64,000 nt of DNA from Micromonospora parathelypteridis (GTDB lineage Bacteria; Actinomycetota; Actinomycetes; Mycobacteriales; Micromonosporaceae): contig NZ_JACHDP010000001.1 of the NCBI RefSeq assembly GCF_014201145.1, forward strand, positions 4,774,001 through 4,838,000, read 5' to 3'. Below are positions 34,935 through 47,204 of this stretch, one piece after another (within the stretch, counting starts at the first letter, position 1; each line of letters begins with the position of its first letter). The notes beneath the pieces were generated by a model. It had not been told where the DNA came from, searched no databases, and saw only the letters and a program-made list of their open reading frames with translations. A program made the translations under genes and the position numbers.

Positions 34935-35186
34935 TCAGCTGGACGCGGTGGCGGCCTGCCGGTCCGTGGTGCCCGATCCGGCACCCCGCACCACCAGTTG
35001 ATCGAGCAGGTCGCGCGTCGCTTCGGCCACGGCGGCCACCGCGGCGTCGAACGCGGCGGCGTTGTGTGCGGCGGGCGCCCGGAAGCCAGAGATCTTCCGG
35101 ACGTACTGCAACGCGGCCGCCTCGACGTCCGCGTCGGTTACCTGCGGGGTGAACGGCTCACGCAGCGTCTTGATGCTCCGGCACAT
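34935..35186 (-). CDS. DUF2277 family protein
   Basis: From the ATG at 35186, which has a GGAGGAG site, the 83-residue product begins MCRSIKTLR, the invariant start of DUF2277. It continues with the family's AALQYVRKISGFRAP. The last ~15 residues are a variable polar tail. Function is unknown. It is divergent from fxsA (151 nt between starts) and is probably unrelated to that cluster. Confidence 0.88.
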   Translation of the reverse strand: MCRSIKTLREPFTPQVTDADVEAAALQYVRKISGFRAPAAHNAAAFDAAVAAVAEATRDLLDQLVVRGAGSGTTDRQAATASS

Positions 35187-35337
35187 GTGCGCTCCTCCTC
35201 TGTCGGCACCCGGGGTGCAGGCAACTGTACCGACGGTGACACTGGGTCGATATTTGTCTATCCTGGTCACGGACGAGAGCCTTTCGAGCAATTGCTGCCG
35301 CTCGCGCTCCCAGCGCCCGCGCCCCCGGAGACTCATT

Positions 35338-35526
35338 GTGGACCATGCCCCCACCCGCTCACCCCGTCCTGACCCAGACAACCTCACCCGCAGCCTGCAC
35401 ACCCCGTTGCAGCGGATCGCCGTCGAGCACGCCGATCTGATCGAGGCGGTTCGCAGGCGCGTCGTGGCGAACGATTCCGCCCCGTCCGGCAGCGTGCCCG
35501 TCGCCGCCTTCAACTCGTCCATCTGA
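35338..35526 (+). CDS. fxsA: FxsA, FxSxx-COOH ribosomal peptide precursor
   Basis: A GTG at 35338, seven bases after GGAG, opens a 62-residue peptide ending in FNSSI, which fits the family's C-terminal rule F-x-S-x-x-COOH. The leader is charged and helical (SLHTPLQRIAVEHADLIEA, then VRRRVV), followed by a Ser/Ala/Val-rich stretch before the motif. Family knowledge: FxsB-type radical SAM enzymes link the Phe side chain to the Ser two residues on as a three-residue cyclophane. The stop is 3 nt before fxsB, so translation is probably coupled. No second core motif is seen. Confidence 0.85.
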   Translation: MDHAPTRSPRPDPDNLTRSLHTPLQRIAVEHADLIEAVRRRVVANDSAPSGSVPVAAFNSSI

Positions 35527-35529
35527 GCG

Positions 35530-37857
35530 ATGGCCTGCCGGTGCGGTCCACCCGGAGTGGGCGGACCCTGCCGGCGGATCAGCCAGTTCGTGCTGAAGGT
35601 GCACAGCCGCTGCGACCTCAGCTGCGACCACTGCTACGTCTACCAGCACGCCGACCAGACCTGGCGGGGCCGACCGGTGCGGATGCCACCGGCCACGGTC
35701 CGAGCCGCCGCGCAGCGCATCGCCGAGCACGCCCGCGAGCACGGGTTGCCGGTCGTGCACGTGGTGCTGCACGGGGGTGAGCCGCTGCTGCTGGGCGCTG
35801 CGGGCCTGCGCGAGGTGCTGGCCGAGCTGCGGGCGGCGATCACGCCGTCGACGCGGCTCGACCTGCGGATGCAGACCAACGGCGTGCTGCTCGACGAGGA
35901 GCTGTGCCGGCTGTTCGTCGACCACGAGGTGCAGGTAGGCGTCTCGTTCGACGGCGACCGTGCCGCCAACGACCGGCACCGGATCTTCGCCCACGGCGGC
36001 AGCAGCCATGACCACGTCCGGCGAGCCCTGGCCCTGCTCCGGCAGCCGGAGCACCGCGCCAGCTACGCCGGCATCCTCTGCACGATCGACGTCCGCAACG
36101 ATCCCGACCGGGTGTACGAGGCGCTGCTGGCCGAGAGCCCTCCCCGGGTGGACCTGCTGCTGCCACACGCCACCTGGGACCACCCCCCGCTGCGCCCCGG
36201 GCCCACCCCGTACGCCGACTGGCTGGGGCGGCTGCACCGGCGGTGGGTGGACGACGGGCGCCCCATGTCGATCCGGCTGTTCGAGGCGCTGCGGCCGGGT
36301 GGCGGCGGCACCGAGGCGTTCGGCCTCGCGCCGGCCGACGTGCTCGTGATCGAGGCGGACGGCAGTTGGGAGCAGGTCGACTCGCTGAAGACCGCGTACC
36401 ACGGGGCCGCCGGCACCGGGTTCGACGTGTTCGGGCATTCGGTGGACGACGTGGCCCGGCACCCCGGGGTCGCCGTCCGACAGGAGGGCATGGCCGGGCT
36501 CTGCGCGACCTGCCGGGCCTGCCCGGTGGTCGACCAGTGCGGCGGCGGCCTGTACGCCCACCGCTGGCGCACCGGCTCCGGCTTCGACAACCCGTCGGTG
36601 TACTGCGCCGACCTGCTCCGCCTGATCGACACCGTGAACGCGTACCCGCCGCCAGCCCCGCCCGCGCCGAGCGGGTGGGTCGCTCCGCCCGTCGTCGAAC
36701 TGCTGGACGACCTGGCGACCGGGCACGGGTCGACGCAGACTCTCACCCGGCTCGCTGACGACCAGTTCGCCAGGGTGCGGGTGCTGCTGACGGCCTGCCG
36801 CGACGAGGTTGGCTCCGCGGCAGCCTGGGAGGTGCTCGCTCACCTCGACCAGGAGGCGCCGGAGGCACTCCGGGCGATCCTGGAACACCCCTTCGTGCGG
36901 CCCTGGCTGGTGCATCGCCTCGTCTCGTCGGCCCGCTTCAACGAGGGCGAGGCCGCCGACCCGCTGCCGGCCCTCGCCGTCACCGCGGCCCTCCGGGCGG
37001 GCCTCTCGACCACGCTCAACGTTCCCGTGCGGGCCAACGCGATCATGTTGCCCACGCTCGGCAGCCTGGCGCTGCCCGACCCGGGGAAGAGCGCCGAGGT
37101 GAGCGTCCTGCCGGGTGGGTTCCGGGTCCGTGCTGGGTCGGCCGAGCAGACGGTCCTCCTCGACCCGATGGCACCGCCGTCGGCCGGCTGGCGACCGACT
37201 CGCGGCGTGCCGGTGCCCGGCGGCCGGTTGCTTCTCGAGGACTGCGATCCGTACCGGGACTGCTACGGCCAGCGGGTGGCCCCCCGCCTGGAGACCCCGG
37301 CGGCGCAGGCGTTGGGCCGTACCCTGGCCGAGGCCTGGCGGGTCGTGCACCGGGACGTGCCGGCGCACGCGGCGGCGCTCGACGGCGGTCTGCGTGCGGT
37401 CGTGCCGCTGGCGCCCGACCCGGCGAGACCATTGCGGAGCGCGACCGCCCGGCAGGCGTTCGGCGCGGTCGCGGTCACCCCCGATCCCGATCCGGAGGCG
37501 ATGGCGGTGCTGCTCGTGCACGAGTGGCAGCACGCGAAGCTCGGTGCCGTGCTCGACCAGTACGACCTCGTCCAGCCAGGTCAGGGCACGCCAATCCGGG
37601 TGCCCTGGCGCCCCGACCCGCGGCCGCCCGAGGGTGTGCTCCAGGGGGTGTACGCCCACCTGGCGGTTACCCAGGTGTGGCGGGCCCGAGCGGCCACCGA
37701 CCATGCGGATGCGTCAGCGCACGCCGCCCGTTACCTGGCGTGGACCCGGGATGGCGTCGACGCGCTGCTGGCCAGCCGGTCGCTCACCGAGGCGGGTGAG
37801 CGGTTCGTCGGCCAGTTGCGGCACGCCCTGGAGGAGACCTGTGTCGGGTCCGGATGA
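35530..37857 (+). CDS. fxsB: FxsB, radical SAM/SPASM peptide maturase fused to an HExxH domain
   Basis: The 775-residue protein has a radical SAM core with the 4Fe-4S motif C28-x3-C32-x2-C35 (CDLSCDHC), the GGEPLL motif, and a SPASM region with the Cys set CATCRAC / VVDQCGGG / VYCADL (about 320-360). A linker leads to a second domain (about 395-775) with HEWQH (His664-His668) and the downstream PWRPDPRP / GVLQGVYAH pattern of the HExxH family now linked to peptide beta-hydroxylation. Many FxsB proteins carry this extension in a degenerate form; here the HExxH is intact. It should install the cyclophane in FxsA and perhaps add a hydroxyl. The start is coupled to fxsA. Confidence 0.92.
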   Translation: MACRCGPPGVGGPCRRISQFVLKVHSRCDLSCDHCYVYQHADQTWRGRPVRMPPATVRAAAQRIAEHAREHGLPVVHVVLHGGEPLLLGAAGLREVLAELRAAITPSTRLDLRMQTNGVLLDEELCRLFVDHEVQVGVSFDGDRAANDRHRIFAHGGSSHDHVRRALALLRQPEHRASYAGILCTIDVRNDPDRVYEALLAESPPRVDLLLPHATWDHPPLRPGPTPYADWLGRLHRRWVDDGRPMSIRLFEALRPGGGGTEAFGLAPADVLVIEADGSWEQVDSLKTAYHGAAGTGFDVFGHSVDDVARHPGVAVRQEGMAGLCATCRACPVVDQCGGGLYAHRWRTGSGFDNPSVYCADLLRLIDTVNAYPPPAPPAPSGWVAPPVVELLDDLATGHGSTQTLTRLADDQFARVRVLLTACRDEVGSAAAWEVLAHLDQEAPEALRAILEHPFVRPWLVHRLVSSARFNEGEAADPLPALAVTAALRAGLSTTLNVPVRANAIMLPTLGSLALPDPGKSAEVSVLPGGFRVRAGSAEQTVLLDPMAPPSAGWRPTRGVPVPGGRLLLEDCDPYRDCYGQRVAPRLETPAAQALGRTLAEAWRVVHRDVPAHAAALDGGLRAVVPLAPDPARPLRSATARQAFGAVAVTPDPDPEAMAVLLVHEWQHAKLGAVLDQYDLVQPGQGTPIRVPWRPDPRPPEGVLQGVYAHLAVTQVWRARAATDHADASAHAARYLAWTRDGVDALLASRSLTEAGERFVGQLRHALEETCVGSG

Positions 37858-38665
37858 GCGGCATCCGCCCACTCTGGGCCGTCCTCGCCTCGCCGACGAC
37901 CTGCGGACGCTGGGCGTCCGCCCGGGCGCGTGCCTCGTGGTGCACTGCGGCCTGCGGCGGTTGGGCCCGCTGGAGCACGGACCAGCGACCCTCGCCGGCG
38001 CACTGCGGGACGTCCTCGGCCCTGCCGGCACGCTGCTGGTGCCCACACACACCGACGGCAACTCGACAACCTCGCGGACCCACCTGGCGGCCACCGCCGG
38101 CATGGACCGGGCTCAGCGCGACCGGTACGAGGCGGCGTTGCCGGGCTGGGACCGCCGGACCACCCCCTCCCAGCGGATGGGTGCGCTCGCCGAGTACGTC
38201 CGCTGCGCCCCCGGCGCCGTACGCAGTGATCATCCGCAGACCTCGTTCGCCGCGCTCGGCCCTCGGGCCGGGCAGCTCACCAGCGGTCACGAGCTCACCT
38301 GCCACCTCGGAGAACGCTCACCGGTGGGCGGCCTCTACGCGGCGGACGGGCAGATCCTGCTGCTCGGTCTCGGGTACGAGGCGTGCAGCGCCCTGCACCT
38401 GGCCGAGTACCGGCTGCCGGTGCCGCCGCCCGAGCGCGACTACCGCTGCTTCCGGCTCGTCGAGGGGCGCCGGGTCCGCCTCGACTTCCGCGGTCTCGAC
38501 CTCGACGACGGCGACTTCCCCACGGTGGGTGCCGCGCTCGACGACGCGCCGTTCGTCGCACACGGTCGGGTCGGTCGGGCAGACGCTCGCCTGCTGCCGG
38601 CGCGCGCCACTGTGGACTTCGCGGTCGGCTGGTTCACGGCGAACCGATTGGCGGCGCGACGTTGA
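37841..38665 (+). CDS. AAC(3)-fold N-acetyltransferase in the fxs operon
   Basis: The 274-residue protein belongs to the aminoglycoside 3-N-acetyltransferase / YokD fold: PTHTDGN (68-74), RTTPSQRMGAL, and SDHPQTSFAA (129-138, with the conserved His131). The GTG at 37841 has GGAGGA five bases before it and lies inside the end of fxsB, with a 17-nt overlap in another frame. Family members acetylate amines with acetyl-CoA; not all act on antibiotics. In this place it might acetylate the modified peptide or a small molecule linked to it. True aminoglycoside resistance cannot be judged from sequence. Confidence 0.88.
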   Translation: MSGPDERHPPTLGRPRLADDLRTLGVRPGACLVVHCGLRRLGPLEHGPATLAGALRDVLGPAGTLLVPTHTDGNSTTSRTHLAATAGMDRAQRDRYEAALPGWDRRTTPSQRMGALAEYVRCAPGAVRSDHPQTSFAALGPRAGQLTSGHELTCHLGERSPVGGLYAADGQILLLGLGYEACSALHLAEYRLPVPPPERDYRCFRLVEGRRVRLDFRGLDLDDGDFPTVGAALDDAPFVAHGRVGRADARLLPARATVDFAVGWFTANRLAARR

Positions 38666-38717
38666 CGCGGGGTCTACGCTGATGTTCCGGCCGCGTGGGG
38701 AGGGCGGAGGGGCTGCG

Positions 38718-39377
38718 GTGAGCACAGTGGACGCACCCTCCCGAACGCGCGCGCCGCTCTTCTTCCTCAGCTATTCGAGAGCGCCGGTCCGTCGGGCCAC
38801 CGGCAAGCCCGCCGAATATGTTTCCCGGTTCTTCGAGGACCTCTCCGTCCACGTCAGCGAGCTGGTCGGCCCGGTGACCGGGGTCGACGCGGGCTTCCTG
38901 GACAGCTCCATCGCGGGCGGGGAGCGCTGGAGTCCGGAGCTCCTCGAGGCCGCCGGCACCTGCCAGGTCTTCGTCCCGCTGGTGTCCAGCGCGCTGCTCG
39001 GCAGCGAGTGGTGTGGCCGGGAATGGGACGCCTTCTCCCGCCGACGGATCGTCCCGCGGCACAGCTCCGCCTCGGCCCACGAGACGGCGATCGTGCCGGT
39101 CACCTGGTCGCCGACGAACGGCGCCGCACTGCCCCGGGTGCTCCGCGACATCCAACGGTTCTCCCCGACCGCCGTGCCGGATCCCGACATCGCGGTGCAC
39201 TACCAGCGGGATGGGGTCTATGGCTTGCTGACCATGCAGTGGGAGAACGCGTACCGGGCGGTGGTCTGGCGGCTCGCACAGCGGATCGTGGCCATCCACC
39301 GGTCGTACCTGGTGGAGCCCTGGGTGCCGGAGAGCGCGGACGAGCTGTGCAACCGGTTCGCTGAGGAGCCGGGATGA
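38718..39377 (+). CDS. TIR-domain protein of the fxs locus
   Basis: The 219-residue protein is almost only a TIR domain. LFFLSYSRAP (14-23) fits the first strand and loop, GFLDSSIAGGERWSPELLEA the second part, and SEWCGREWDAF (96-106) the WCxxE motif with Glu102, the position of the catalytic Glu in NAD-cleaving TIRs. The GTG at 38718 follows GGAGGGG. The end overlaps FxsC by 4 nt. Whether it cleaves NAD, makes a signal nucleotide or only binds partners cannot be seen. Confidence 0.85.
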   Translation: MSTVDAPSRTRAPLFFLSYSRAPVRRATGKPAEYVSRFFEDLSVHVSELVGPVTGVDAGFLDSSIAGGERWSPELLEAAGTCQVFVPLVSSALLGSEWCGREWDAFSRRRIVPRHSSASAHETAIVPVTWSPTNGAALPRVLRDIQRFSPTAVPDPDIAVHYQRDGVYGLLTMQWENAYRAVVWRLAQRIVAIHRSYLVEPWVPESADELCNRFAEEPG

Positions 39378-40645
39378 GCCCGCCGGCGGACCGGCGTCGA
39401 CCGGCGGCGCGCGGGACGTACTTCTTCCTCAGCTATGCCCACTCGGCGCCGGCGCCGGGAGCGCGGGCCGACGCCGACGTCTGGGTCGGCCAGTTCTTCA
39501 CCGATCTGTCCGACGCGGTGCGGCGCCAGGCGCGACCGGTGGCCGGGATGCGCATCGGCTTCTTCGACCAGCACATCCCGTTGGGCGCGGACTGGAAGGC
39601 CGCTCTCGCCGAGGCACTCGGTGACGCCGAGGTCTTCGTCCCGCTCTACTCACCCGGCTACTTCAGCCGTCCGTGGGCACTGGGGGAGCAGGAGTCCTTC
39701 CGGGCACGGTTGGCCGCCGCCAAGCCGGCCCGGACCGCCGCCGGCCATCTCATCCCGGTGCTGTGGATCCCGTTCCCTCCGTGGGAGGCCCATCCGGAGT
39801 TGGACGGCGCACTGGACCTGGGTCGGGACGTCCCGGAGTACGCCGAGGACGGCCTACGCGCGTTCTGCATGCTCGCCTCCTACCGGGAGCAGTACGAGCT
39901 GCTGCTGAGCCGCCTGGCCGGTCAGATCGTGCACATCGCCGAGCGGCGACCGCTGGGCCCGTCCCGGGCGCCCGGCCTCGACGAGGTCGCCCGCCCGGCG
40001 CCGACCGACCCGGACTTCGTCGTCGCCGTCCTGGCCCCGACCCAGGACCGCCTCCCGGCCGACCGCGACCCCGCCGGCTACGCCGCCAACGGCCGGCTCT
40101 GGCGGCCGTACGGGCGCAGCCAGGAGTTGCCCGCGGCCGAGTACGCGGTGAGCACCGCCGAGCGTCTCGGGCTGTCCGCCCGCACGGAAGATTTCGCGCA
40201 GGCCGCCGGGCTGCTCGATCGTCGACCGGCCGTGCTGCTGGTCGACCCGTGGATAGCGGCGACCCCGGATGGGCCCGAAGGCCTCGCCCGCATGCTGCAC
40301 GGTCTGCGGGAGTGGGTCGTTCCCCTGGTGGTCACCGACGAGGAGGACACCCAGGACGCGACCCGGTGGGCGACCGAGGTGACGCAGGTGCTGCACGACG
40401 CCGGTCTGCCCCAGGTGAAGCGTGCCTGCAGCATGCCGGAGTTCGTCGACCTGATGCCGGCGCTGGTCACCGAGGCCCGCCGCCAGTTCCTGAAATACGG
40501 CCCGGTCGTCCCCTTCGAACCACCGCCGGAGCCGGTGCCGAGCCTGCGGGACGGCCTGTCCGCCGCCGGCCCGACCGGTACGCCCGACCCCGCGTCCACG
40601 CCTGATGATCCGGCCCCACCGCGTACCCACGGAGAAAACCGATGA
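39374..40645 (+). CDS. fxsC: FxsC, TIR-like protein
   Basis: The 423-residue protein has an N-terminal TIR-like domain (YFFLSYAHS, 16-24; IPLGADWKAALAEALGDAEVF in parts; PWALGEQESF with Trp101 and Glu105 as a WxxxE). A second alpha/beta domain (about 215-370: DFVVAVLAPTQDRLP, AVLLVDPWIAA, WVVPLVVTDEEDTQD) looks like a degenerate receiver or Rossmann-type module. The tail is Pro-rich. The family is defined by its link to FxSxx-COOH clusters. Its ATG overlaps the TIR gene, and its stop overlaps fxsT by 4 nt. Confidence 0.87.
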   Translation: MSPPADRRRPAARGTYFFLSYAHSAPAPGARADADVWVGQFFTDLSDAVRRQARPVAGMRIGFFDQHIPLGADWKAALAEALGDAEVFVPLYSPGYFSRPWALGEQESFRARLAAAKPARTAAGHLIPVLWIPFPPWEAHPELDGALDLGRDVPEYAEDGLRAFCMLASYREQYELLLSRLAGQIVHIAERRPLGPSRAPGLDEVARPAPTDPDFVVAVLAPTQDRLPADRDPAGYAANGRLWRPYGRSQELPAAEYAVSTAERLGLSARTEDFAQAAGLLDRRPAVLLVDPWIAATPDGPEGLARMLHGLREWVVPLVVTDEEDTQDATRWATEVTQVLHDAGLPQVKRACSMPEFVDLMPALVTEARRQFLKYGPVVPFEPPPEPVPSLRDGLSAAGPTGTPDPASTPDDPAPPRTHGENR

Positions 40646-43600
40646 ACAACGATCGCGAAGGTCAGGTCGTCACCTTCTACTCGTTCAAGGGTGGGACGGG
40701 TCGGACGATGGCGCTGGCCAACGTCGCCTGGATCCTCGCGGCCAGCGGCCGGCGGGTCCTCGTCGCCGACTGGGACCTCGAGTCACCCGGCCTGCACCGC
40801 TTCTTCCACCCGTTCCTCGACGCCGAGGCGATCCAGGGCACCAGCGGCGTGATCGACATGATCCGCGACTACGAGTGGGAGACCACCCGGGTCGACGACC
40901 GGCCGGATCGCTGGATGGAGCAGTACGCCCGGGTCGGGCGGCACGCGTTCTCGCTGCGCTGGAACTTCCCGGACGGCGGCGGCCTCGACTTCCTCTCCGC
41001 CGGCCGGCAGAACAGCGACTACGCCGTGTCCGTGAGCGGGCTGGACTGGGACAACTTCTACAACCGGCTGGGCGGTGCGCAGTTCTTCGAGGCGCTGCGG
41101 GCGGACATGAAGCGCCAGTACGACTTCACCCTGATCGACAGCCGGACGGGGTTGAGCGACGTCGCCGACATCTGCACCCTGCACCTGCCGGACACCCTGG
41201 TCGACTGCTTCACGCTCAGCGACCAGGGCATCGACGGGGCGGCCCGGGTGGCGCACTCGGTGCGGGACCGGTACCGCCGGCGCGACATCCGGGTCCTGCC
41301 GGTGCCGATGCGGGTGGACCAGGCCGAGAAGGAACGGGCCGAGGCGGGTCGCCTGCTGGCCATGCGCCGGTTCGCCGGCTTGCCGGCGGGCATGACCGAG
41401 GCGGAACGGCGGCGATACTGGGCGGCGGTCGAGGTCCCGTACCGGCCGTTCTACGCGTACGAGGAGACACTGGCGACGTTCGGTGACCCGCCCGGCTCGC
41501 CGACGTCGCTGCTGGCCGCGTTCGAGACGTTGACCGGGATCCTCACCGACGGTGCGGTGACCGCGCTGCCGGTGATGGACGAGTCGGTGCGGGAGCGGGG
41601 CAAGGCCCGCTTCCGGCGGCGTACCGAGGCGATCGACGACCAGATCGTGCTCCGGTGCGCGCCGGAGGACGCCATCTGGGCCGAGTGGCTGGAGCGGGTG
41701 CTCAGCTCGGCCGGGCTGCGGGTGGTGGACCCCACCGCCGCCGTCGGGTCCGCCGGTACGCCTGCCCCGCGCACGCTGACCGTAGTGTCGCCGGCCTACG
41801 TGGCGACGCCGTCGGGCGGTCTGCCCGACCGCGACACGAGCACCGGCTCCACGGCCCTCGCCGTGTACGTCGCCGACCTGCGCCCGCTGGCCGAGTTCCC
41901 TTCCCAGAGCTCCACCAACCTGGTCAACGTGAGCGCCGCGACCGCCGTGGAGCGGGTGTTGCGGCTGGTCGGCCGGCCAGTGCCGTCGTCGGCGGACGGC
42001 CCGGCGGGTGGGAGTTCCCGCTATCCCGGCGCCGAGCCGTTGATCTTCAACGCGCCCAACCGGAACGCCCGCTTCACCGGCCGGGAGGACGACCTGGCAC
42101 GGCTGCGCGCGCAGTTGCAGAGCGGGGGCAGCGCGGTGGTGCTGCCGGTCGCCCTGCAGGGCATGGGCGGTGTCGGTAAGACCCAGGTGGCCCTGGAGTA
42201 CGTGCACCGGTACAAGGCCGCGTACGACGTGGTGTGGTGGATCGTGGCGGACCCGCCGCAGTTCGTCGACACCGCCCTCGCCGACCTCGCCGGTCGCCTC
42301 GGCATCCTCGCCGGGCCAACCCTGCCCGACACGGTCCGGTCGGTACTGCAGGTGCTGAGTCGGGGCGAGCCGTACGAGCGGTGGCTCGTCGTCCTCGACA
42401 ACGCCGAAGAGCTCGACCAGATCGAACCCTTCCTGCCACAGGGCCCCGGGCACGTCCTGCTGACCTCCCGCAACCGGGCCTGGGGGGACCGGGCGAACCC
42501 GATCCAGGTGGATGTCTTCGACCGCACCGAGAGTGTCGCGCACCTCGCCCAGCGGGTGCCCACGATCAGCGCCGAGGAGGCCGACCGCGTGGCCGAGGCG
42601 CTCGGCGATCTGCCGATCGCGGTGGCGGCGGCGGGCGCGTGGCTCGCCGACACCGGCACGTCGGTCGCCGACTACCTGCGGCAGATCGAACGACACGGCC
42701 CCAGCGCGCTGTCGGTGGAGGCCACCTGGGACCTGTCGCTGAACCGGCTGCTCGACCAGGCGCCTGCCGCGTACCGGCTGTTGCAGCTCTGCTCGGTGCT
42801 GGCCCCGGAGATCGCACTCGAACTCGTCTACAGCGACGAGATGGCGGCAGCTCTCGTGCCGTTCGACCCGTCGGTGTCGGAGCGGCTCGTGCGCGGTGCC
42901 CTGGTCCAGCAGATCAACCGGTTGGCGCTGCTGAAACTGGACGTCCAGGGCGGGCGGGTCCAGGTGCACCGGCTGCTGCAGGCGGTGGTACGCGACCGGA
43001 TGACCGATGACGAGATCAACGCCGCCCGACACCAGGTGCACCTGGTGCTGGCCGCGTCCCGGCCCCGCGGTGACGTGGACGACCCGACCACCTGGGCCCG
43101 GCTGCGCATGCTCTGGCCGCACCTGGAGGTCTCCGAGGCGCTGACCTGCCCGGACGAGTCGGTGTGTCAGCTGCTGATCGACCGCGTCCGCTATCTGTGG
43201 CAACGCGGTGGCCTGGACCAGGCCGACGGGTTCAGCCAGGAGGTGGACGACACCTGGTCCGCCCGGCTCGGCGACACACAGGACGAGGCCGACGCGACGG
43301 CGCTCGGTCGACAGTTGCTGCACCTGCGGTTCAACCGGGCGAACATCCTGCGCAGCCTGGGCCGGTTCGAAGAGGCCCGGGACCTGGACGAGGCGGTGCT
43401 GGCGGAGCAGCGTCGGCTGCTGGGCCCGCTGCACCCGCACAGCCTGATGACCGCCGGCAGCCTCGGCGGCGACCTGCGGGCGCTCGGCCGCTACGCCGAA
43501 GCGCTGGATCGGGACCGGTCCACCTACGCCTCGTGGCTTCAGGTGTTCGGTGAGGACCACCCACGGACGTTGAGTGCGGCCAACAACCTCGCCGTCTCGT

Positions 43601-44511
43601 ACCGGCTGGTCGGCGACTACCGGTCGGCCCGCCGCTGGGACGACGAGGTGCACCAGCGGCGGCGGCTGGTGCTCGGCCCCACCAACCCGTACACCCTCGT
43701 CTCCGCCGTCCGCCTGGGCAGCGACCTGCGGGAAGCCGGCGAGTACGAGAGGTCGGCCACCCTGCTGCGCACCGTGTACGACTCGTACTGCGAGGTGCTC
43801 GGGCCCGACGACGGTAGAAGCCTCAGTGCCCAGGTCAACCTGGCGGTGTCGATGCGCAGCGCCGGCCGGGCGGGCGAGGCGGCGCCGATGTTCGAGGCGG
43901 CCTACCGGAAGTTCGACGAACTCTTCGGACCGGACAACCCGGACACGGTGGCGTGCCGGTCGAGCCGGGCGGCGAATCTGCTGGCCGTTGGCGACGCGGG
44001 CCGGGCGTTTACCGAGATGACCGCCGTGATCCAGGCGTACGAGGAGGAACTCCGGCTCGGCCCGGAGCACCCGCACACCCTGGCGACGTTGAGCAACATC
44101 TCCGCCGCCGAGCGTGCGCTCGGCCGCAGGTCGGAGTCGCGTGCATCGGCTGCCCGGGCTGCCGGAGAGTTGCGCAAGGTGCTCGGCCCCGACCACCCGC
44201 ACACGCTCGCGGCGGAGGTGAACCAGGCGGTGTGCCTCGCCGAGGAGGGCGACTGGGAGTCGGCACGGGACCGGCTGCGGGAGACCGCCGGCCGGCTGTC
44301 CGCGGTGATCGGCGCGGACCACCCGGACACGCTGCGCTGCCTCGGCGATCTCGCCCTGGTGTCGAGGCGGGCCGGCGACGGCGCTCCCGCCGAGGACGTC
44401 GGCGCGGTGGCGGAGCGGCTGGCCGAGGTGATCGGCCACGAGCACCCGACCGTGCAGACCCTGCGCGAACGGCGGTTCGTCGTCCGCGTGATCGACCCGC
44501 ACACGATCTGA
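40642..44511 (+). CDS. fxsT: FxsT, KGGxGR-ATPase / TIR-like / NB-ARC / TPR protein
   Basis: The 1289-residue multidomain protein starts with a MinD/ParA-like ATPase whose loop is FKGGTGRT (15-22), with Arg21 in place of the signature Lys; VADWDLESPG follows. A TIR-like segment lies at about 320-430 (DQIVLRCAPEDAIWAEWLERVL). An NB-ARC/STAND NTPase follows with Walker A GMGGVGKT (507-514) and Walker B WLVVLDNAEEL. About nine TPR units of some 42 residues with LGPxHPxTL linkers fill 840-1280. The plan is that of an NLR-like sensor. It closes the fxs operon and is followed by a hairpin. Ligand and output are unknown. Confidence 0.9.
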   Translation: MNNDREGQVVTFYSFKGGTGRTMALANVAWILAASGRRVLVADWDLESPGLHRFFHPFLDAEAIQGTSGVIDMIRDYEWETTRVDDRPDRWMEQYARVGRHAFSLRWNFPDGGGLDFLSAGRQNSDYAVSVSGLDWDNFYNRLGGAQFFEALRADMKRQYDFTLIDSRTGLSDVADICTLHLPDTLVDCFTLSDQGIDGAARVAHSVRDRYRRRDIRVLPVPMRVDQAEKERAEAGRLLAMRRFAGLPAGMTEAERRRYWAAVEVPYRPFYAYEETLATFGDPPGSPTSLLAAFETLTGILTDGAVTALPVMDESVRERGKARFRRRTEAIDDQIVLRCAPEDAIWAEWLERVLSSAGLRVVDPTAAVGSAGTPAPRTLTVVSPAYVATPSGGLPDRDTSTGSTALAVYVADLRPLAEFPSQSSTNLVNVSAATAVERVLRLVGRPVPSSADGPAGGSSRYPGAEPLIFNAPNRNARFTGREDDLARLRAQLQSGGSAVVLPVALQGMGGVGKTQVALEYVHRYKAAYDVVWWIVADPPQFVDTALADLAGRLGILAGPTLPDTVRSVLQVLSRGEPYERWLVVLDNAEELDQIEPFLPQGPGHVLLTSRNRAWGDRANPIQVDVFDRTESVAHLAQRVPTISAEEADRVAEALGDLPIAVAAAGAWLADTGTSVADYLRQIERHGPSALSVEATWDLSLNRLLDQAPAAYRLLQLCSVLAPEIALELVYSDEMAAALVPFDPSVSERLVRGALVQQINRLALLKLDVQGGRVQVHRLLQAVVRDRMTDDEINAARHQVHLVLAASRPRGDVDDPTTWARLRMLWPHLEVSEALTCPDESVCQLLIDRVRYLWQRGGLDQADGFSQEVDDTWSARLGDTQDEADATALGRQLLHLRFNRANILRSLGRFEEARDLDEAVLAEQRRLLGPLHPHSLMTAGSLGGDLRALGRYAEALDRDRSTYASWLQVFGEDHPRTLSAANNLAVSYRLVGDYRSARRWDDEVHQRRRLVLGPTNPYTLVSAVRLGSDLREAGEYERSATLLRTVYDSYCEVLGPDDGRSLSAQVNLAVSMRSAGRAGEAAPMFEAAYRKFDELFGPDNPDTVACRSSRAANLLAVGDAGRAFTEMTAVIQAYEEELRLGPEHPHTLATLSNISAAERALGRRSESRASAARAAGELRKVLGPDHPHTLAAEVNQAVCLAEEGDWESARDRLRETAGRLSAVIGADHPDTLRCLGDLALVSRRAGDGAPAEDVGAVAERLAEVIGHEHPTVQTLRERRFVVRVIDPHTI

Positions 44512-44522
44512 TCAAGGGCGGT

Positions 44523-44558
44523 CCGGCGGGTGGGTGGGGCGTTTGACCCGCCCGCCGG
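44523..44558. terminator. Terminator hairpin after fxsT
   Basis: Arms 44523-44535 and 44546-44558 pair at 12 of 13 positions (CCGGCGGG core) around a 10-nt loop containing GTTTG, between convergent genes. Confidence 0.6.
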
Positions 44559-44581
44559 GCTGCTCGTTCACGTCTTGGATC

Positions 44582-45514
44582 TCAGTGTCGCGGGCTGGTC
44601 GCCAGCTCCGGGTTGGCCAGCCAGGTCAGGGTCTGCGGCAGGATCTCCACCGCCCCGAAGTGCGCGGCGCCGGGCTGCACCTGGACCTCGGCGCGTGAGA
44701 TTCGTGCGGCGAGCCAACGGGAGTGCTCCACCGGGGAGAAGCGGTCCTGCTCGCCGTGCCAGAGTCGGACCTCCGCGCGGATGGTGCCGAGGTCGAACCC
44801 CCAGCCCCGCCGAATCGCCAGCACATCGTCGATCCAGCCCTCGGGGCCGTGCCGCAACGCCTCGGAGTACATGTCGGTCAGCAGGCGGCGGATCGCGATG
44901 TCGTCGACCACTCGGATGTCCGCCTCGGGCAACTGGGGGCGGAGGAAGTCCAGCAGCGTCATCGGGTCCTTCCGGGCCTCTTCCGCGCGGACCTTCAGGT
45001 TGAGCGTCAGCTCGGTCAGGTCCTCGTCGGCCTGCCCGTAGTCCTCCACGTTCGTCTCGGCCATCCCGGCGTACCAGTCGAGGTCGGGTGCGCCGGCCGG
45101 TGCGAGCCCCACCAGCACGGCGGCCCGGGTGACCCGGTCGGGCAGCAGCGCCGCACAGGCCAGGGCGTGCGGCCCTCCGCCGGATCGGCCCACCACCGCG
45201 AACCGCTCGATGCCGAGGTCGTCGGCGATCGCCGCCACGTCGGCCGCGGCGTCGGCCACCCGCCGACCCTCGTGCCGGTGGGAGTCGCCGTAACCGGGTC
45301 GGTCGTAGCAGACGAGGTGCACGCCGAGGCGGTAGACGACGATGCCCCGGGGCCGGGGGCCGCTGCGGCTGCCCGGGGTGCCGTGCAGCAGGAAGACCGC
45401 GGGCCCGTCCGGTGCGCCGGAGGTCTCCACTGCGAGGTGCCGGCCGTCCGGGGTCGTGACGGTGCGCTGTGCCGCATCTTGTCGCGTCACGGTTGGCCTC
45501 CCGCGGGTCGTCAT
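44582..45514 (-). CDS. Alpha/beta hydrolase
   Basis: The ATG at 45514 has a GGGAG site; the longer frame upstream is not protein-like. The 310-residue protein has the oxyanion motif HGTPGSR (44-50), the nucleophile elbow GRSGG (Ser111), the acid loop GEQDRFSP and the catalytic His in PGAAHFG near the end. The substrate is unknown; the form fits proline iminopeptidase- or epoxide-hydrolase-like enzymes. It is convergent with fxsT, so it is not part of that operon. Confidence 0.85.
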
Positions 45515-45710
45515 GTGCTCCCCCGTGAACGGAGCCGCGCATCGTCGGCGCCGAGTGCAAAGCCCCCGAAATCGCCCAGAACACATCCTTGTTGTGCAGC
45601 GTACTGCCCGTCGTGGATGCCCGCCATGGGCCGCCGGGTCAATGCCGGTGGGTTGGGGTCGTCAAACGGGCCGCTACCCTGGTAGCCCGAGGGGAAGGGG
45701 CACCAAGAGG

Positions 45711-47204
45711 GTGGCTAGGACCTACAACGTCGTGACGTACGGCTGCCAGATGAACGTGCACGATTCTGAGCGCATCTCCGGCCTGCTCGAACAGGCTGGC
45801 TACGTGCGCGCGGTGCCGGCCGACGACTCCCCGGACATCGTCGTCTTCAACACCTGCGCGGTGCGGGAGAATGCGGACAACCGGCTCTACGGCAACCTCG
45901 GTCGTCTGCGCCCGGTGAAGGACAAGCACCCCGGGATGCAGATCGCGGTCGGCGGCTGCCTGGCCCAGAAGGACCGGGGTGAGATCGTCCGCAAGGCGCC
46001 CTGGGTGGACGTGGTCTTCGGCACCCACAACATCGGTGCGCTGCCGGTGCTGCTCGAGCGGGCCCGGCACAACGCCGCCGCCGAGGTGGAGATCCTCGAG
46101 TCCCTCGACGTCTTCCCCTCCACGCTGCCCGCCCGCCGCGAGTCCACGTACGCCGGCTGGGTGTCGATCTCGGTGGGCTGCAACAACACCTGCACCTTCT
46201 GCATCGTGCCCGCGCTGCGCGGCAAGGAGAAGGACCGCCGTCCCGGCGACATCCTCTCCGAGGTGCGCGCCCTGGTCGACGAGGGCGTACTGGAGGTGAC
46301 CCTGCTCGGGCAGAACGTCAACTCCTACGGCGTCGAGTTCGGTGACCGGTACGCGTTCGGCAAGCTGCTGCGCGCCTGTGGTGACATCGACGGGCTGGAG
46401 CGGGTCCGGTTCACCAGCCCGCACCCGAAGGACTTCACCGACGACGTGATCGCCGCGATGGCCGAGACACCGAACGTCTGCCACTCGCTGCACATGCCGT
46501 TGCAGTCCGGCTCCGACGACGTGCTCCGGGCGATGCGCCGGTCCTACCGCTCCGAGCGCTACCTGGGGATCATCGAGAAGGTCCGGGCAGCGATGCCGGA
46601 CGCGGCGATCACCACCGACATCATCGTCGGCTTCCCCGGCGAGACCGAGGCCGACTTCCAGCGCACGCTGGACGTGGTCCGCGAGGCCCGGTTCTCCTCG
46701 GCCTTCACCTTCCAGTATTCGAAGCGTCCCGGCACCCCCGCCGCGACGATGGACGACCAACTGCCCAAGCAGGTCGTGCAGGAGCGCTACGAGCGGCTGG
46801 TGGCATGCGTCGAGGAGATCACCTGGGCGGAGAACAAGCGACTGGTGGGGGAGACCGTCGAGGTGCTCGTCGCGGTCGGCGAAGGGCGCAAGGACGAGCG
46901 GACCGGCCGGATGTCCGGTCGGGCCCGCGACGGTCGGCTGGTGCACTTCGCGACCGAGGCCCCCGGCACGGAGTCGATGGCCGGCCAGATCCGGCCGGGA
47001 GACATCGTGCACACCACGATCACGTACGCCGCGCCGCATCACCTCAACGCCGACGGGGCGCCGGTGGCGCACCGACGGACCCGGGCCGGTGACGCGGCCG
47101 AGGCGGGACGATCCCCGCGTACCCCCGGGGTGTTGCTGGGTCTGCCGACGATCGGCGCGCCGCCGGTCGCGGCCGCGCCCACCGCGGGCTGCGCCACCCA
47201 CTGA
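45711..47204 (+). CDS. miaB: tRNA-2-methylthio-N6-isopentenyladenosine synthase MiaB
   Basis: The 497-residue methylthiotransferase has three parts. The UPF0004 domain has three Fe-S Cys (YGCQMN with Cys12, [14 protein letters not shown]). The radical SAM core has [10 protein letters not shown]-terminal TRAM domain follows. It adds a methylthio group to i6A37 of tRNA, the product of MiaA (51.3 kb). The GTG at 45711 is my start; the frame runs upstream into the hydrolase region without family resemblance. The last ~45 residues are a lineage-specific Ala/Pro tail. A strong hairpin follows 6 nt later. Confidence 0.95.

Follow-up and report, generated by a model that had tools for sequence, protein, structure and literature searches.

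What might a ribosomally made, crosslinked peptide be doing in an operon whose other products resemble the parts of immune and conflict systems? The question is raised by the fxs operon of the soil actinobacterium Micromonospora parathelypteridis, a run of six genes on the forward strand (35338-44511) of the 64,000-nucleotide stretch analysed here (positions 4,774,001 to 4,838,000 of contig NZ_JACHDP010000001.1; hereafter, the window), which joins an FxSxx-COOH peptide precursor and its radical SAM maturase to TIR and STAND proteins. A preliminary description, made from the letters of this stretch, suggested that the modified peptide may trigger a TIR response, act as its ligand or inhibit it. 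Comparison with relatives sustains part of that interpretation, in that the coupling to TIR and STAND proteins is kept and no recurrent exporter accompanies it; against it, two of the genes on which it drew are inconstant, namely those for an AAC(3)-family acyltransferase and a second TIR protein, and an alpha/beta-hydrolase (ABH) just beyond the operon had been overlooked. The comparison yields five constant parts (FxsA, a fused FxsB, FxsC, FxsT and ABH) and two that are optional, AAC(3) and the extra TIR. We propose, with somewhat less than even confidence, a STAND/TIR switch that is gated by a ribosomal triceptide (cyclophane peptide) retained in the cell.

The operon is laid out as first described, with all six frames open from end to end. 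It begins with fxsA (35338..35526), whose 62-residue product carries the F-x-S-x-x tail AAFNSSI at its extreme C-terminus; the codons at 35509..35523 specify FNSSI, the presumed crosslinked core. Following after 3 nt, fxsB (35530..37857) is predicted to encode a radical SAM/SPASM cyclophane synthase fused to an alpha-ketoglutarate (aKG)-HExxH domain, with the motif HEWQH at 37519..37533. It overlaps by 17 nt the gene for the AAC(3)-family (Antibiotic_NAT) acyltransferase (37841..38665, the start being the GTG at 37841). Beyond the single gap of 52 nt lies the gene for the standalone TIR protein (38718..39377), a paralogue of the FxsC N-terminus, followed through overlaps of 4 nt each by fxsC (39374..40645; a TIR domain and the FxsC C-terminal domain) and fxsT (40642..44511; a MinD/ParA-like ATPase with the motif KGGTGRT, a degenerate TIR region, NB-ARC and TPRs). 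ABH is encoded on the reverse strand, convergent with fxsT (44582..45514, in a frame open to 45586). Family scans bear out the membership and association claimed at the outset: FxsB scores 541 bits against TIGR04269 (cut-off 370), which we take to be the same family as InterPro IPR026335, and its C-terminal domain 154 bits against TIGR04267 (mod_HExxH; cut-off 40); FxsC scores 153.5 bits against NF040588 (cut-off 130) and 64 against TIGR04276 (cut-off 55); the standalone TIR reaches 164 bits against NF040588; FxsT reaches 971 against NF040586 (cut-off 300) and 138 against NF047398, with NB-ARC and TPR domains present. FxsA, at 21 bits against TIGR04268, falls below its cut-off (28 bits). Judged by these profiles, the six-gene set is an FxSxx-COOH/triceptide system.

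To establish which parts belong together, we surveyed FxsB above its profile cut-off in a class sample of 394 genomes and a family sample of 300. It was found in 79 of the former and 196 of the latter (either FxsB type); FxsT (NF040586) was found in 105 of the class genomes. Within the genus the distribution is patchy, at least 20 same-genus genomes being without FxsB; the host genome, a single contig of 7.01 Mb, has one copy above the family cut-off. From the FxsB matches listed, 110 loci were picked by hand (70 from the family survey, 40 from the class survey), with high-scoring and contig-internal ones favoured, and the six-frame open reading frames (ORFs) of neighbourhoods of about 20 kb were searched with profiles grown from the window proteins; the genes counted here are open frames, not gene-finder calls. 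In this sample, in which a close Micromonospora clade (15 loci including the window) is over-represented, 34 loci have a non-fused FxsB, one (L040) has FxsB in separate frames, and 76 (75 and the window) have a fused FxsB, meaning that one frame covers both the radical SAM and the HExxH region. Of these 76, 73 encode FxsC and 72 an FxsT undivided within one frame (L053 has it split over two), as against 53 for AAC(3) and 40 for the standalone TIR. FxsC and FxsT are near-universal in fused loci, and AAC(3) and the extra TIR are accessory. The expectation of a conserved TIR, AAC(3) and FxsT complement therefore holds for FxsC and FxsT, whereas the presence of AAC(3) and of the second TIR varies; a lack of TIR and STAND genes in most relatives, named beforehand as a sign against the coupling, is not what we found. 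On a tree of FxsT and FxsB, parsimony requires 11 changes for AAC(3) presence and 2 for the placement of the canonical TIR motif. Mobility of the locus was considered and dropped: a search returned 18 plasmid records, all below 60% identity, the best among the matches listed having 50% over 45% of the query; one of these 'plasmids', at 11.85 Mb, is hardly one.

The fifth constant part is ABH, which is present in all 74 sampled loci with fused FxsB and FxsC and in none of the 34 with non-fused FxsB (a Fisher comparison that ignores kinship among loci); the three fused loci without FxsC are also without ABH. Thus, ABH is a core partner of the fused-FxsB/FxsC set. Plain synteny can be ruled out as an explanation: the flanks differ beyond the close clade, ABH stands upstream in L078, L112 and L113, and it was not found in the stretches of any of the 34 non-fused loci. 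FxsB, FxsC, FxsT and ABH occur together in Micromonospora, Actinoplanes, Phytohabitans, Virgisporangium and Plantactinospora, as well as in Streptomyces, Actinacidiphila and a Catenulispora MAG, in a set of named species that overlaps the 110 loci and in which FxsA was not looked for. A search for the ABH subfamily in the 394 genomes, with at most five candidates scored in each, gave 28 matches of at least 364 bits, the next scoring 300; this gap arises partly by construction, because the model was built from the fxs copies and their closest homologues. Of the 28, 23 have a fused-length FxsB nearby, one (G141) has a shortened FxsT as its neighbour, and four are in stretches without an fxs gene.

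Two single cases deserve mention here. At L176, in Streptomyces phyllanthi, the FxsB and AAC(3) frames are open, no FxsC or FxsT was found, and ABH is present as fragments only; in G141 (L195) the shortened FxsT stands beside a full-length ABH. As single cases, both fit a dependence on FxsC/FxsT.

ABH itself has the alpha/beta-hydrolase fold and a Ser-Asp-His triad, and scores 33.6 bits against the Hydrolase_4/S33 Pfam model. Its listed fold neighbours, mostly esterases, epoxide hydrolases, dehalogenases and haloperoxidases, weakly favour a hydrolase of small bonds over an endopeptidase; no S33 peptidase is among the 50 fold matches listed, which excludes nothing. ABH could trim, inactivate or bind the peptide.

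What the peptide looks like can be predicted from its maturase. MscB joins Phe C4 to Ser C-beta at residues i and i+2 (PMC11002830, InterPro IPR026335), and by analogy a Phe-Ser cyclophane is expected in the FxsA product. Cysteines 28, 32 and 35 of the radical SAM CxxxCxxC motif are invariant in the 76 fused loci, and the nearest solved relatives of FxsB are ChlB (9gm3, 22nu) and ChlH (8s5f). In 72 of the 76 loci an ORF with an F.S.. ending is found next to fused fxsB, and across the 76 all ORFs with this ending, these 72 included, number 104 of 17380; the last residue is I, L or V in 60 of the 72. In the non-fused locus L131 the precursor tail repeats its core (FNSFI ... FNSFI), with no other fxs profile match in its stretch. 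The HExxH motif is kept in 63 of the 76 loci, and the motif and profile score predict an oxygenase-type domain of the aKG beta-hydroxylase kind: TIGR04267 is annotated as a peptide beta-hydroxylase in NCBIfam, although Kaur et al. (2020; PMC7159879) named such proteins peptidases. This family is described as comprising both aKG hydroxylases and enzymes that cleave the peptide backbone (PMC12636437), so that a processing role for the fused domain is possible. The earlier remark that the cluster has no leader protease gene passes over both this domain and the conserved ABH just outside the coordinates then considered.

The AAC(3) gene matches PF02522 at 241 bits. It was ruled out as an aminoglycoside resistance gene, since it reaches only 163 bits against the aminoglycoside equivalog NF033082 (cut-off 270), and its best solved match, FrbF (3sma; 161.8 bits), stands above the aminoglycoside AAC(3) entries. 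Its His131 is conserved in all 53 copies. No peptide residue tied to AAC(3) presence stood out by eye in the listed precursors.

On the side of the putative receptor, TIR NADases are marked by a catalytic-type glutamate motif. The WCxxE glutamate (residue 102) of the standalone TIR is kept in 40 of 40 copies; in FxsC the glutamate column is kept in 67 of 73, with the CGxE form in only 16 of the 73, none of which has a standalone TIR. At any one locus, then, the canonical motif occurs in at most one of the two proteins, FxsC or the extra TIR. With both TIR types carrying a catalytic-type glutamate, NADase activity is predicted. The TIR profile matches the plant resistance proteins L6, RUN1 and SNC1 and a bacterial TIR among solved structures, weakly (best E 3.3e-5). 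Two of the three TIR-type domains claimed in the preliminary description are detected by Pfam in the window proteins; the third, in FxsT, is not, though TIR_2 matches this region in 14 of 22 aligned FxsT proteins. The region looked degenerate in the 22 loci displayed, and a profile comparison of the FxsT interdomain with the FxsC TIR gave no significant match. KGGTGR and the NB-ARC Gly-Lys of FxsT are invariant (72/72). Its TPRs match structures of kinesin light chains, whose TPRs bind peptides. Copy number varies at some loci: in Micromonospora noduli and M. alfalfae (L146, L149) a single FxsC is followed by two consecutive FxsT genes, and the non-fused L089, L092, L093 and L099 each carry, within 20 kb, two pairs of FxsC and FxsT that lie on opposite strands.

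Briefly, we advance the following mechanism. FxsB, whose second domain is the oxygenase-type HExxH one, would crosslink the C-terminal FxSxx of FxsA; AAC(3), where present, might cap an amine. The modified C-terminal peptide would stay in the cell and bind a complex of FxsT and FxsC through a TPR or TIR part, either holding the complex off or licensing it. ABH would control the level of the peptide by trimming or inactivating it or one of its bonds. A disturbance of peptide level or maturation would then allow the NB-ARC protein FxsT to assemble the TIR proteins, the NADase-type site of which would act on NAD+. The constant set of FxsC, FxsT and ABH and the lack of a recurrent exporter argue for an intracellular role of the peptide; an antiviral role, and the polarity of the ligand, may be entertained as further parts of the proposal. 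Also in its favour are the single promoter-like site before fxsA and the lack of a terminator-like site within the operon, both described below. We also offer, as a rather doubtful extension, a more specific form: an NLR-like switch with a self-made ligand, in which FxsT and FxsC read the crosslinked tail, ABH sets its level, and lost maturation or turnover, as opposed to a foreign pattern, frees the TIR enzyme. Should the peptide indeed gate FxsT, a bacterial NLR-like protein would have as its ligand a ribosomal product crosslinked by enzymes, and peptide tailoring chemistry would be linked with TIR signalling.

Several observations weigh against the gating of a TIR switch by the peptide. The loss of HExxH in 13 of the 76 loci implies that hydroxylation is dispensable; 11 non-fused loci have FxsC with no ABH found within the fetched stretch, so that ABH is not required by every FxsC system; and the canonical TIR motif is missing from both proteins in 17 of 73 loci, four of which are also without the glutamate. 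Against an arms race, the candidate sensor FxsT evolves slowly, its ATPase parts being the best conserved of all among close relatives: identity to the nearest relative is 100% for its AAA, 98% for its NB-ARC and 91% for its TPR part, as against 78-81% for the HExxH region, AAC(3) and TIR. No FxsB match was found in 50,697 phage records, nor any close relative in IMG/VR (a search sensitive to close relatives only), where no relative of FxsC was found either. The flank ORFs identified are DUF2277 (34935-35189, reverse strand, divergent from fxsA), selD, a solute-binding-domain protein, miaB and a pectate lyase. Lastly, tails ending in Ala, His or Met (L048, L063, L081 and kin) occur only where the canonical TIR motif is missing (11/17 versus 0/54), and these loci form one clade. 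Covariation between the peptide tail and FxsC (partial r 0.28, p 0.002, in tests of ten domains against three stretches of the peptide) vanishes once nine loci of two tail types are removed, and TPR, HExxH and others also gave p<0.05 with other peptide stretches. It is not counted as evidence because the loss of the TIR motif is one tree event and the tail change two, all inside the same clade.

The same parts could instead form a switch that multicellular actinobacteria conserve for physiological or developmental ends, such as programmed cell death or differentiation, and that is not directed at phages; we regard this as fairly unlikely. The frequency of FxsB in family and class, the slow evolution of FxsT and the lack of phage matches are consistent with it, as are the chromosomal surroundings and promoter-like site shared in the close Micromonospora clade. 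This sigma-70-like site (GTGACA-17-TATCCT, 35236..35264, forward strand), which ends 74 bases before the fxsA start, is the only one in 35100-45800 (10.7 kb; 0.1 expected) and recurs in all 14 upstream sequences that could be aligned (from the window and 13 close relatives), with the first hexamer identical throughout and the second TATCCT in 10 and TATTCT in four; the scan of 35100-45800 found no terminator-like site, including inside the operon. On the other hand, FxsB is patchy within the genus, the flanks differ in other relatives, and the domain set resembles conflict systems as presented in PMC7159879.

Less probable still, in our judgement, is abortive infection against phages, with the TIR triggered by the peptide or by its absence. 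Its TIR, NB-ARC and TPR parts speak for it, and PMC7159879 treats related systems as conflict systems; against it stand the slow evolution of the sensor and the outcome of the suggested search for nearby defence genes, none of which emerged when eight flank ORFs were run against Pfam and NCBIfam (two frames had no match). PADLOC models run on the six operon proteins matched only pVip on FxsB (32 bits) and the candidate-system PDC-M28B on FxsT (80 bits), single models only, in a scan of models without system rules. A plain exported triceptide antibiotic or signal, with the TIR and STAND proteins as mere regulators or immunity factors, is very improbable: FxsB-family enzymes do make crosslinks in RiPPs and an N-acyltransferase is present in 53 of 76 loci, but the latter is less constant than either FxsC or FxsT, and the absence of a transporter noted at the outset extends to relatives as far as tested, no flank family besides ABH exceeding 9 of 61 loci outside the close clade (ORFs of at least 90 aa, about -5.5 to +14.4 kb).

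How, then, does the gated TIR switch proposed here compare with known systems? The coupling of FxSxx-COOH peptides to STAND ATPases was described in 2020 by Kaur et al. (PMC7159879), whose section 24 already proposes that FxSxx peptides accompanying STAND/TIR conflict proteins may be a 'peptide toxin or signal'; a literature search on FxSxx and FxsC gave no further account of the system among the matches listed. Their systems share with the window the FxSxx precursor, the radical SAM/SPASM enzyme and the STAND ATPase with TIR, TPR and MinD/ParA-like parts, also occurring standalone in actinobacteria. In contrast, section 24 reports a separate metallopeptidase gene, where the window has HExxH fused to FxsB, a domain whose family has since been reported to hydroxylate; the passages on aminoglycosides and acetyltransferases have no AAC(3), which the window operon has; and an alpha/beta-hydrolase is mentioned with caspase-containing and GTPase systems, not with FxSxx, whereas the window locus has ABH. 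The FxSxx system and its STAND coupling are already known, and the accessible text leaves unremarked that, in the relatives sampled, ABH accompanies the full set. ABH is linked to FxsB in no title or abstract opening among the literature matches listed; subscription literature lay outside this search, and an earlier description is possible.

The enzymes have their own precedents. The AAC(3) protein resembles the FrbF and YokD-type Antibiotic_NAT acyltransferases, FrbF being its top solved match, and differs from aminoglycoside enzymes in falling under their equivalog cut-off. ChlBH (Morishita et al. 2024, as cited in PMC12636437) shows the same fusion of radical SAM and aKG-HExxH as FxsB of the window; ChlH is there reported to hydroxylate the Asp and His residues in its own cyclophane, whereas fxs loci can lose the motif. 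Finally, the Phe C4-Ser C-beta bond of the triceptides made by MscB fits the F-N-S of the window FxsA, and while the account of MscB (PMC11002830), in the part available, concerns chemistry alone, the window operon sets this chemistry beside TIR and STAND genes.

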